NCBI RefSeq assembly: GCF_007970665.1
Contig: NZ_CP042430.1
Location: forward strand, 2,790,001 to 2,854,000
DNA: 64,000 nt
Reading direction: 5' to 3'
DNA from: Baekduia soli
GTDB lineage: Bacteria; Actinomycetota; Thermoleophilia; Solirubrobacterales; Solirubrobacteraceae
Program-made: the position numbers and the translations under genes
In this document: piece by piece, positions 11,909-18,784 of the stretch
How positions within the stretch are numbered: the first letter of the stretch is position 1
Layout: each line of letters begins with the position of its first letter
Notes under the pieces: generated by a model
Told to the model about the DNA's origin: nothing
Seen by the model: the letters and a program-made list of their open reading frames with translations, nothing else
Database searches by the model: none

Positions 11909-13869
11909 ATGACCCAGACCGCCATCGAGGGGATCGCTCCATCCCCGTCGCGCTGATCGCCGGCGCGGCCCTCCTGGCCGCGGGCGTCCCGCTGGCCTTC
12001 GCACCCTGGGCGCGCGCCGCGGTGCTCGCGCCGTGCGCCGGATCGCTGCTGATCGCCGGGGGCGCCGTCGCGGTGCTGGCGGGCGCCGGTCCGGCCGGCG
12101 CGCCGTTCCACAGCACGCTGCACCCGCGCCTCGGCCTGGACGGCCTCAGCGCGCTGTTCGCCCTCGTCGTGTGCGGGTCGGTCGTCCCCGCGCTGGCGGC
12201 CGCGGGCGACGCGATGGCGGGCGCGCCCGCCCGGCGGCCGCTGCTCGCGCTGACCTGCGCGTTCGCCCTCGCGCTGCTCGGCGTCCTGGCCGCGCGAGAC
12301 GTCGTGACGTTCCTCGGGGCGTGGGAGCTCATGACGCTGCTGCCCGCGACAGCGATCCTCGTCGCCCGGCGCGACCGCGCCGTACGCCGCACGGTCTTCG
12401 TCTACCTCGCGACGACCCACCTCGGCGGGGCGGGGGTCTGGGTCGCCCTGCTGCTGCTCGCCCAGCACGGGGCGGTCGGCGCCGCGCTGGGCGACGGGCC
12501 GCGCACGCTGGTCCTCGTCGCGGCTCTCGTCGGGTTCGGGACCAAGGCCGGCGTCATGCCGCTGCACGTCTGGCTGCCGCGCGCCCATCCCGTGGCGCCG
12601 AGCCACGTGTCGGCGCTCATGTCGGGCGTCATGGTCAAGGTCGCCCTGTACGGCCTGTTGCGCGTGCTGTTCGAGTGGGCGGCGCCCGCGCCGCGCTGGG
12701 CGGGCTTCGTGCTCCTGGGCGCCGGCGTGCTCTCGGCGGTCGCCGGGATCGTCTACGCGCTCGTGCAGCGCGAGCTCAAGCGGCTGCTGGCGTTCAGCAC
12801 CGTCGAGAACGTCGGCATCATCGTCGCCGCCCTCGGGGCGTCGGTCCTGCTCTTCGCCGACCACCGCCCCGTCTGGGGCTCGATCGCCTTCGCGGCCGCG
12901 CTGCTGCACACGGTCACCCACGCCGTGGTCAAGACAATGCTCTTCCTGGCCGCCGGCGCCATCGGCCACGCCGCCGGCACCCTCGAGCTCGAGCGGCTCG
13001 GCGGGCTGCTGCGCCGCATGCCATGGACGGGCTGGTCGCTGGTGGCCGGGTGCGCGGCGATCGCGGGCCTGCCGCCGCTGGCCGGCTTCTCGTCGGAGTG
13101 GCTCGTGCTGGAGGCCACGCTGCACCTCGGCTCCGGCTCGCGCGCGGCCGACGCGGTCGCCGGCGCGCTGGCGACCGCGGGCCTGGCGGCCACGGCGGGC
13201 CTGGCGGTCCTGTGCTTCGTCAAGCTCGCCGGGCTCGTGCTGCTCGGCGCCGCGCGCAGCCCCGGCGCCGCCGAGGCGCAGGAGGTCCCCGCCGCCACGC
13301 GCGCCGCGCTCGTCACGGGCGCCGGCGCATGCGTCGCGCTCGGCGCGCTGGCCGGCGAGATCGTGCCCGTCCTGGCGCGCCTGGCGCCCGGCGACGCAAC
13401 GGTCGCGGGCGGCGCCGCGCTGCGGCTGCCCGGCACCGGGAGCCTGCCCGCGGTGGGGCTGCTCGTGGCGCTCGGCCTGGTGTTCGGGCTGCTGCGCCGC
13501 GCGACGGGCCGCGCGCCACGGGCGGCCACGGCCCCGGCCTGGACGTGCGGCCAGCGCCTGGAGCCGGCGTTGGCCTACACCGGGGCGGGCTTCACCAAGC
13601 CGCTGCGCCTCGTGCTCGAGGCCGTCCTGCGGCCGGCGCGCGAGCTCGAGGTCGTCGACGGCGTGGGCGGCGTGCGGCGCATCCGCCATCGCGCCGAGGT
13701 CCCGCACCGCTTCGACGAGGAGCTCTACGCACCGCTGGCCCGCGGGGCGCTGCGCGGCGCGGCCGTGGCGCGGCGCCTGCAGTCGGGCAGCCTGCGGACC
13801 TACATCCTGTACATGCTCGCGCTCGTGATCGGGCTGCTGGCGCTCGCGCGCCTCGGAGGCCTGGCGTGA
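11909..13869 (+). CDS. HyfB/NuoL-like proton-translocating membrane subunit, probable frame break near the start
   Basis: The main frame (from GTG 12022) encodes 615 residues of membrane helices with antiporter-like motifs: GAWELMTLLPATAIL, TKAGVMPLHVWLPRAHPVAPSHVSALMSGVMVKV (seen as consecutive segments), and a C-terminal helix. The family needs roughly 40 more residues and one more helix. ATG 11909 opens MTQTAIEG; one extra G in the G4 run 11929-11932 joins it to SIPVALIAGAALLAAG, giving about 653 residues, the usual HyfB length. Member of the Mrp-antiporter/complex-I pump family; expected to translocate protons or sodium in the cytoplasmic membrane. The stop overlaps the next gene (GTGA). 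Confidence 0.85.
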
Positions 13870-14795
13870 CCGGCGCCGACGCCGGCGCCGGCGTCGCGCA
13901 GGTCGCGGGCGGCCTGGTGCTCGCGCCGCTGGCCGCGGGCTGGATCCAGCATCTCAAGGGGCGCCTGCAGGGCCGGCGTGGGCCGTCGGCGCTGCAGCCC
14001 TACCGCGACCTGCGCCGCCTGTGGGGCAAGAGCGCCGTGCAGCCCAGCGCCGCCGGGCCGCTGTACCGCGCCGCGCCCGCGGTCGTGGCGGCCGCCCTGC
14101 TCGTGGCCGCGCTCGTCGTGCCCGTCGGCGGCCGCGCGGCGGACTGGGGCGTCGGCCACGACGCGCTCGTCGTCATCGGCCTGCTCGCGCTGGCCCGCGG
14201 CGCCCTGGCGCTGTCGGCCTGGGACACCGGCGCGGGGTTCGGGCTCCTGGGCGCCGGGCGCGACCTGACCTTCGCGGTGTTCGTCGAGGGCGTGCTGCTG
14301 CTCGTGGTGCTGCTGGCCGGGCGGGCGGTGGGCGGCAGCACCGACCTCGTGGCGCTGTCGGGCGCGGCGGCGGGCGGCGCGCCCTGGCACTCGGCCGCGC
14401 ACTGGTGCGCCGGGGCGGCCTTCGCGCTCGTCGCCCTGGCCGAGACCGGCCGCCAGCCCGTCGACAACCCCGACACCCACCTCGAGCTGACGATGGTCCA
14501 CGAAGGCCCGCTGCTGGAGTACGCCGGGCGCGACCTGGCCTGCCTGCAGTGGGCCGCCGCCGCGCGGCTGTGGCTCATGCTCGTGCTGGCCGCCGGGCTC
14601 TTCGCGCCCACCACCGGCCCGTTCACGGCGCGGCTGGCGCTCGCGGCCGCGACGGTCGCCGTCCTCTGCGTGGCGATCGCGCTCACCGAGACCGCGCTGG
14701 CCAAGATGCGCATCCTGCGCGTGCCGGTGTTCGTCGGCGGGGCCGGCGCGCTCTGCCTCATCGGCCTGGCCGGCAGCCTGGTGCAGGGCGCGTGA
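13866..14795 (+). CDS. HyfC/NuoH-like membrane-anchor subunit
   Basis: 309 residues from a GTG overlapping the previous stop. Landmarks of the NuoH/HyfC family: GWIQHLKGRLQGRRGPSALQPYRDL near the N-terminus (contact with the quinone or hydrophilic arm) and the acidic loop LAETGRQPVDNPDTHLELTM with VHEGPLLEYAGRDLA. About seven hydrophobic helices. It links the membrane arm to the NuoB/D-like subunits encoded downstream. The conserved acidic loop is intact, so coupling to ion translocation is plausible even though the catalytic subunit is altered. Confidence 0.9.
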   Translation: MTGADAGAGVAQVAGGLVLAPLAAGWIQHLKGRLQGRRGPSALQPYRDLRRLWGKSAVQPSAAGPLYRAAPAVVAAALLVAALVVPVGGRAADWGVGHDALVVIGLLALARGALALSAWDTGAGFGLLGAGRDLTFAVFVEGVLLLVVLLAGRAVGGSTDLVALSGAAAGGAPWHSAAHWCAGAAFALVALAETGRQPVDNPDTHLELTMVHEGPLLEYAGRDLACLQWAAAARLWLMLVLAAGLFAPTTGPFTARLALAAATVAVLCVAIALTETALAKMRILRVPVFVGGAGALCLIGLAGSLVQGA

Positions 14796-18316: not shown

Positions 18317-18784
18317 GTGTTCGTCCTGCTCCGCCACCTTCAGCAGCTGCGCCGCTCGGCGGCCCTGCCGCGCACGGCGACGCGCGGCTCGCTCGCCCTG
18401 CGCCACGTCGACGCCGGCTCGTGCAACGGCTGCGAGCACGAGCTCGGCGCCGTCACCGGCGTCTACTACGACCTCCAGCAGTACGGGCTCGACGTCGTCG
18501 CGTCCCCGCGCCACGCCGACGTGCTCCTGGTCACCGGCGCCGTGACGACGCGGATGGCCGGGCCGCTGCAGGCGGCGTACGCGGCGATGCCCGAGCCGCG
18601 GCTGGTCGCCGCGCTCGGCGACTGCGCGCTGGGCCGCGGCGTCCTGGGCACGGCGTCCGAGCTCGCCGGGCCGCTGGACGGCCTGCTGCCCGTCGACCTG
18701 CGGATCCCGGGCTGCCCGCCGGCGCCGGCCGTGATCGCGGAGCACCTCGTCGCGGCCCTGCGCGACCGCGCGGCCGGCAGCTAA
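18317..18784 (+). CDS. HyfI/NuoB-like iron-sulfur small subunit
   Basis: 155 residues from the GTG immediately after the previous stop. Four cysteines in the proximal [4Fe-4S] pattern are all present: GSCNGCEHE (Cys36 and Cys39), ALGDCALG, and IPGCPPAP. The fold is that of NuoB and the small subunit of group-4 hydrogenases. It would hold the cluster next to the large subunit's catalytic region. No other iron-sulfur subunit and no hyp maturation genes are nearby, so the electron donor to this complex is unclear. The operon ends here; a 32-bp gap with AAAGGACG precedes the next gene. Confidence 0.9.
   Translation: MFVLLRHLQQLRRSAALPRTATRGSLALRHVDAGSCNGCEHELGAVTGVYYDLQQYGLDVVASPRHADVLLVTGAVTTRMAGPLQAAYAAMPEPRLVAALGDCALGRGVLGTASELAGPLDGLLPVDLRIPGCPPAPAVIAEHLVAALRDRAAGS

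Follow-up and report, generated by a model that had tools for sequence, protein, structure and literature searches.

Gene content of the locus

The window analyzed here, a 64,000-nucleotide stretch of the Baekduia soli contig NZ_CP042430.1 (positions 2,790,001-2,854,000; single-contig genome of 5.21 Mb, 95.55% complete), contains a compact locus for a membrane-bound complex related to group 4 [NiFe]-hydrogenases (Table 1). A gene for an ArsR-family regulator is followed by six genes in the order hyfB, hyfC, hyfE, hyfF, hyfG, and hyfI (hyfBCEFGI), which specify a full membrane arm together with two further subunits, a large one resembling NuoCD and a small one resembling NuoB. From hyfB to hyfI the genes overlap by 4-8 bases, except for hyfG and hyfI, which abut. 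No HyfA-, HyfD-, or HyfH/NuoI-like gene is present within the locus, the NADH module (NuoE/F/G plus NuoI) is absent from it, and no such gene is a conserved neighbor in the clusters of relatives. The NuoD subunit of an ordinary complex I is encoded separately in the same genome, at 1,310,947.

A sequence-only reading had begun the first gene at 11909, but the ATG there is out of frame with the hyfB open reading frame (ORF), and its own frame ends after 15 codons. Homology to relatives in the hyfB frame extends upstream of the in-frame GTG to about 11945; a frame problem caused by a single-base indel near 11940-11955 (real or an assembly error) is likely, or else a shorter protein may be made.

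The coupling parts of the complex look functional, as the sequence-only reading had noted for the ion-pump subunits, because antiporter and E-channel residues are retained in the predicted proteins. The conserved residues are E102, K175, K206, K253, H296, H300, K304, and E359 in HyfB (K175 stands where Escherichia coli HycC has Leu), E136, K224, and E397 in HyfF, and R111, D133, E141, E193, E213, and E218 in HyfC. All four proximal-cluster cysteines of HyfI are present, with a CxxC spacing like that of MbhJ and HycG and different from the tandem CC of complex I.

Table 1. Features of the hyf-type locus, with positions counted from the first nucleotide of the window.
Feature	Position	Strand	Basis
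Degenerate operator-like palindrome AATCTTCGAAGTT upstream of arsR	11359..11371	none	Half-site scan of window; binding inferred
ArsR-family regulator, 131 aa, cysteine-free	11409..11804	+	PF01022 1e-11; NF033788 3e-24
Second operator-like site TCTTA..AAGATT..ATCTT between arsR and hyfB	11851..11888	none	Inferred from likeness to relatives' conserved palindrome
HyfB-like antiporter-like subunit	12022..13869	+	In-frame GTG 12022; PF00361 3e-40; hydrogenase 4 subunit B model 1.5e-139
HyfC/HycD/NuoH-like membrane anchor, E-channel residues	13866..14795	+	PF00146 2e-35
HyfE-like small membrane subunit	14792..15409	+	Hydrogenase 4 membrane subunit model 7.5e-10
HyfF-like antiporter-like subunit	15402..16868	+	PF00361 2.6e-40; hydrogenase 4 subunit F model 3e-72
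HyfG/NuoCD-like large subunit, 483 aa, without C-terminal extension	16865..18316	+	Homology, AlphaFold model
L1 motif C189-A-A-D192-A-V-A-N196	17429..17452	+	Codons; alignment to HycE C241, C244, H248
L2 motif C477-Y-A-C480	18293..18304	+	Codons; alignment to HycE C531, C534
HyfI/HycG/NuoB-like small subunit, proximal-cluster C36, C39, C103, C133	18317..18784	+	Homology, cysteine spacing

The metal site of the large subunit and its distribution

Group 4 [NiFe]-hydrogenases bind nickel through four cysteines in two CxxC motifs, of which HyfG keeps three. The HycE ligands C241, C244, C531, and C534 align with C189, D192, C477, and C480, and HycE H248 aligns with N196, a position that is also Asn in respiratory complex I. 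The codons of the first motif are TGC (C189), GCC (190), GCC (191), GAC (D192), GCG (193), GTG (194), GCC (195), and AAC (N196); those of the second are TGC (C477), TAC (478), GCC (479), and TGC (C480), close to the protein end ...ELCYACVDR. The chain stops at R483 and has no C-terminal peptide of the HycE type, whereas the HycE-type relatives (L047, L052, and L056-58) are 33-44 residues longer at the C-terminus. The codons thus bear out the sequence-only reading of a first CxxC reduced to Cys189, with Asp192 and Asn196, and of an intact Cys477/Cys480 pair at which the chain ends. That reading would have fallen had a corrected sequence restored a normal CGIC...H motif at this position; however, TGC to GAC takes two base changes and the Asp is shared by three related genomes (L005/G155, L006/G137, and L007/G021), which rules out a one-base sequencing error.

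The AlphaFold model of HyfG (pLDDT 91.2) had HycE as its best PDB match (7z0s_E, Z 44.2, rmsd 2.4 over 465 residues), with complex I subunits next (Z up to 39.9). Residues of the HycE proton relay and canopy, whose roles are taken from the formate hydrogenlyase structure paper (PMC9474812), correspond in HyfG as E193 to E142, H284 to H232, R395 to R343, E437 to E385, and R478 to R425. The canopy aspartate D529 of HycE is E475 in HyfG; this position is Glu in every cysteine-bearing relative aligned and Asn in nearly all of the cysteine-free ones. HycE D192/E193, which the same paper equates with the quinone-site histidine of the beta1-beta2 loop in complex I, are I141/E142 in HyfG, so that this histidine is lacking. 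The description of the nickel site as broken, made in the sequence-only reading, is correct as to the incomplete ligand set; the retained proton relay and proximal-cluster ligands argue for a working redox site, not a broken one.

We compared the window with 29 other sequences at 55 to 64% identity. The first motif in these 30 window-type sequences is CxxC in 25, CxxD in four (the window included), and CxxG in one, and the hydrogenase His that follows it is found in none. In a wider set of about 130 sequences, some duplicated, site cysteines are borne by one group (Thermoleophilia-like, Chloroflexi, Bacillota, Acidobacteriota, and others) and missing from another (Nitrospira, archaea, Proteobacteria, mycobacteria, and other actinobacteria). 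In a large-subunit tree built without the motif columns, the window lies within a 29-row clade (support 99) that is nested in a 52-row, almost wholly cysteine-bearing clade (96). HycE and HyfG of E. coli, with their close relatives (98), stand apart from the clade of energy-converting hydrogenase-related (Ehr) complexes (99), which holds the window together with Nitrospira, Nitrososphaera, and actinobacterial members. Parsimony on the free tree gave three changes to CxxD, with a minimum of two when the four Thermoleophilia-like CxxD rows were joined, and the tree with these rows held together was not worse (p-AU 0.93); a second origin of CxxD lies in a separate lineage (L068/L078). A site broken in this gene only is ruled out by this distribution: on the sequences compared, Asp192 is fixed in a small clade and is not peculiar to the window gene. 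Within the genus, five genomes were sampled, and the complex itself is absent from four of them.

Two further variants were seen among the distant relatives. Members of L064-L091 (e.g., L067, L083, and L084, from Bacillota, Chloroflexi, and Acidobacteriota) keep the CxxC and the His and lack the C-terminal peptide, and could be real tail-less group 4 hydrogenases of an unrecognized type. Outside the order of the host, HypD accompanies the combination of CxxC and His in 11 of 15 genomes, so those distant members may differ from the window clade. In L072 (Desulfosporosinus UBA8487) the motifs read SxxC...SxxC, with Ser for the first cysteine of each pair and the second cysteines kept.

Maturation, regulation, and a possible partner

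The hydrogenase maturation protein HypD (PF01924) was not found anywhere in the host genome, HypD being the sole Hyp protein searched (not HypA, B, C, E, or F), and PF00374 was not found anywhere in its 5.21 Mb. The absence of maturation genes claimed from the window was thereby borne out for HypD, and on a genome-wide scale, and for this protein a hydrogenase served by hyp genes elsewhere in the genome was rejected on the same ground. When 201 genomes from the order were surveyed, HypD was no commoner in the 33 that have the complex (11/33) than in the 168 that do not (51/168; Fisher p 0.84), and no association appeared within genera either. At least eleven genomes of 90% completeness or more encode the four cysteines and lack HypD, and HypD was found in none of the six CxxD genomes examined. 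These data make it unlikely that the cysteines of the window clade hold a [NiFe](CN)2CO center. Because members of the wider clade have four cysteines, lack the His, and often lack HypD, the [NiFe] cofactor was very probably lost before the cysteine, and Asp192 would have arisen on a Cys4 site that was apparently already independent of maturation.

The ArsR gene adjoins the six genes (upstream, divergent, or downstream) in all 22 window-type loci whose contig reaches far enough, with one ORF in between in L142, and also accompanies homologous actinobacterial clusters in which hyfI comes first (L120 and L130). No other conserved neighbor was found in about 100 loci, and a conserved neighboring partner gene was rejected on this ground. 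Of 23 regions upstream of this ArsR, 12 contain the half-site ATCTTA/TAAGAT, where first-order Markov shuffles predict 0.7; upstream of other genes it is found in 8 of 228. Where the window has its degenerate site at 11359, relatives carry ATCTTA-N8-TAAGAT. The full palindrome, searched as ATCTTA-N{4,12}-TAAGAT in 16 genomes, gave seven occurrences in six of them, all with an N8 spacer and all at the hyf locus. In the 64 kb of the window the only AATCTT/AAGATT half-sites are those within the degenerate sites, at 11359 and 11865. ArsR presumably binds ATCTTA-N8-TAAGAT, and the adjacency of its gene together with this private operator-like palindrome points to a maintained, regulated unit. Cysteine is absent from ArsR in the window and in nearly all relatives, which makes a thiol-based sensor of metal or sulfur unlikely. 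A perfect 11-base inverted repeat, GATCCTGAGGC-N7-GCCTCAGGATC, at 11377-11405 ends 3 bases before the arsR start codon and is a candidate terminator of the upstream cupin gene or a candidate operator.

An NAD-type formate dehydrogenase (NuoEF fusion, HoxU-like protein, and FdhA) maps to another part of the genome (about 3,763,400-3,767,690). Its alpha subunit (~700 aa), counted at a cut-off of at least 600 bits that was set after the scores had been seen, was found in 20 of the 33 genomes with the complex vs 31 of the 168 without (p 2e-6; three families tested). Permuted within genera, the link gave p 0.002, and p 0.035 in genomes at least 90% complete. CO dehydrogenase was rejected as a partner, since CoxL showed no enrichment (5/33 vs 27/168). 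Pairing of formate dehydrogenase with Ehr has been proposed for Saganbacteria and Riflemargulisbacteria (PMC6349859), and the co-occurrence in this order supports that idea without establishing it.

Proposed function and comparison with known systems

We consider the window complex to be, rather probably, an Ehr complex, i.e., a redox-driven ion pump that neither makes nor uses H2, from a widespread family of presumed pumps of this kind. It is read as an Ehr complex and not as a hydrogenase because HypD and PF00374 are absent, the C-terminal peptide is missing, and E. coli Hyd-3 and Hyd-4 fall elsewhere in the tree. Its antiporter-like membrane subunits plus NuoH-, NuoCD-, and NuoB-like subunits are those of Ehr, as is a group-4-like core that lacks the full Ni-Fe ligand set, although three of four cysteines are kept, unlike in most described Ehr. 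Within Ehr it is a variant, one of a subgroup that keeps cysteines and apparently gave up HypD-dependent maturation earlier than the ligands. The sequence-only reading had likewise placed it among hydrogenase-related complexes whose substrate is unknown, and that placement holds; the clade-wide Asp192 and the ArsR gene with its palindrome had been missed.

We infer redox activity and pumping, including its direction and ion. The single HyfI [4Fe-4S] cluster would carry electrons towards or away from a substrate bound in what was the active-site pocket of HyfG. In this pocket Glu142, Arg425, His232, Glu385, and Arg343 may still form the proton path of hydrogenases and complex I. By moving the conserved loops at the interface, along with the charged axis through HyfC, HyfE, HyfB, and HyfF, the redox step would drive translocation of H+ (or Na+). 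The likeliest use would be a side entry into the respiratory chain, with low-potential electrons from a soluble dehydrogenase (a formate- or NADH-type enzyme is the best-supported candidate) reducing a hydrophobic acceptor at the HyfG pocket; menaquinone would be the most probable one, although a quinone as acceptor is a guess that we hold doubtful. The dedicated ArsR would control the operon. Several observations weigh against this proposal. The locus encodes no NuoI/HyfH-like relay, so that any electron route into HyfI would be hypothetical; Ile141/Glu142 occupy the position of the complex I histidine, so that quinone chemistry would differ; and Glu475 stands in for the superfamily's canopy aspartate. 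A hyp cluster missed at the given genome completeness is unlikely but possible. Of the 33 genomes with the complex, 13 lack formate dehydrogenase, among them seven of the eight from genus g14, and the operator palindrome is present only at the hyf locus and not near the formate dehydrogenase, leaving a shared ArsR regulon unsupported.

These last two points bear most on the specific-partner version of the Ehr proposal, in which the NAD-type formate dehydrogenase docks on or feeds the complex as a formate-driven pump. Co-occurrence within genera, the pairing proposed for Saganbacteria and Riflemargulisbacteria, and the NuoE/F- and NuoG-like electron-transfer parts of the dehydrogenase, which the complex lacks, speak for it; its genes, however, are not adjacent, such dehydrogenases also work alone, and the post hoc score threshold tempers the association. 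We regard this version as unlikely, yet as the best of the alternatives.

Distinctly less probable is a complex like Pyrococcus furiosus MBS, in which a sulfur compound, polysulfide or another, would be reduced by the pocket at the proximal cluster. MBS is a group-4-derived pump of the same architecture in which the nickel site was partly lost, with two of four cysteines kept (PMC7684303). It retains one Cys of each pair, whereas the window HyfG retains three, and it has a ferredoxin-side subunit with two more clusters. For catalysis MBS relies on a proximal cluster that three cysteines hold, because its loop is three residues shorter (PMC7684303), and for this reason the four cysteines of HyfI in hydrogenase spacing matter; the cysteine-free ArsR also fits poorly with a sulfur substrate.

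A slightly poorer candidate still is a dead redox arm, the unit being an Mrp-like antiporter or a decaying relic. The possible frameshift at the 5' end of hyfB and the patchy occurrence of the complex in the genus would suit decay, but the other ORFs are intact, the proton relay, cluster ligands, and pump residues are conserved, Asp192 is fixed in several genomes, and ArsR and its palindrome are maintained. A surviving [NiFe]-hydrogenase, with Asp192 as bridging ligand and the cofactor supplied by an unrecognized maturation route, could draw on the three remaining ligands, the proton relay (Glu142 and Arg425), and the relatives with four cysteines, but is very improbable given the HypD results in the host, in the CxxD genomes, and in the four-cysteine genomes, the missing C-terminal peptide, the lack of a protease at the locus, and Glu475 in place of the canopy Asp.

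Within the Ehr proposal, the Cys4 or Cys3Asp site may be no relic. A tentative idea, to which we give rather little weight, is that it was reused without Hyp maturation to bind a simpler metal, such as a small Fe-S unit or a mononuclear Fe, Zn, or Ni, as the catalytic center of a proton-pumping non-hydrogenase; if true, its chemistry would be intermediate between that of complex I and that of the [NiFe] hydrogenases. According to the view in PMC7684303, complex I arose from hydrogenases that gave up their four nickel-site cysteines step by step. What is new here is the clade-level picture, in which most relatives keep four cysteines yet HypD is no commoner with the complex. A four-cysteine state apparently without HypD, a three-cysteine-plus-Asp derivative, and a sister group with no site cysteines all occur on the same six-subunit pump, so that it becomes testable whether the cofactor went first and the ligands followed.

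Six-gene hyfBCEFGI sets have been noted in Cupriavidus metallidurans (PMC2864759) and Nitrospira (PMC5596200), and Ehr complexes without CxxC in Nitrospira (PMC10284858) and ammonia-oxidizing archaea (PMC10432482), the function being unknown in all. The window shares with these operons the six subunits, the usual gene order, the DFPLxNKSF C-terminus, and the lack of a C-terminal peptide and of HyfA/D/H. The Nitrospira, archaeal, and proteobacterial Ehr compared have no site cysteines (SGD...SYAG), whereas the window clade has three or four and an ArsR gene. The "hyc" locus Rv0081-Rv0087 of Mycobacterium tuberculosis, known here from papers only, has an ArsR regulator followed by the same subunits (PMC3087520, PMC6177252). 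Ca. Mycobacterium methanotrophicum has ArsR and the six subunits, with a large subunit 40% identical to that of the window, but hyfI comes first and the site cysteines are absent. Such loci, the related mycobacterial one included, are compact targets with a private regulator for learning what Ehr complexes do. E. coli Hyd-3 (HycE/HycG) and Hyd-4 (HyfG/HyfI) resemble the window complex in fold, proton relay, and small-subunit cluster ligands, and differ in CGICGxxH, DPCxxC, the C-terminal tail, the HycF/HyfH and HycB/HyfA relays, and Hyp maturation. Respiratory complex I shares the fold, the coupling axis, and the Asn at the N196 position; unlike the window complex it has NuoE/F/G/I, no site cysteines, and a His where HyfG has Ile141/Glu142.

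Other features of the window lie downstream. The FAD-linked oxidase directly after hyfI (18817-20504) is split over two overlapping frames, with PF01565 in one and PF02913 in the other, probably by another single-base indel. The region 27056-50642 holds tail sheath and tube proteins, a baseplate hub/spike, gp25, baseplate J, and an AAA ATPase, by which B. soli carries a locus like those of extracellular contractile injection systems. A large Ser/Thr kinase-like protein at 42156-44642 strongly matches models of the PD-T4-6 defense kinase; it is probably a Pkn-type kinase of the ordinary sort, located next to the injection system.

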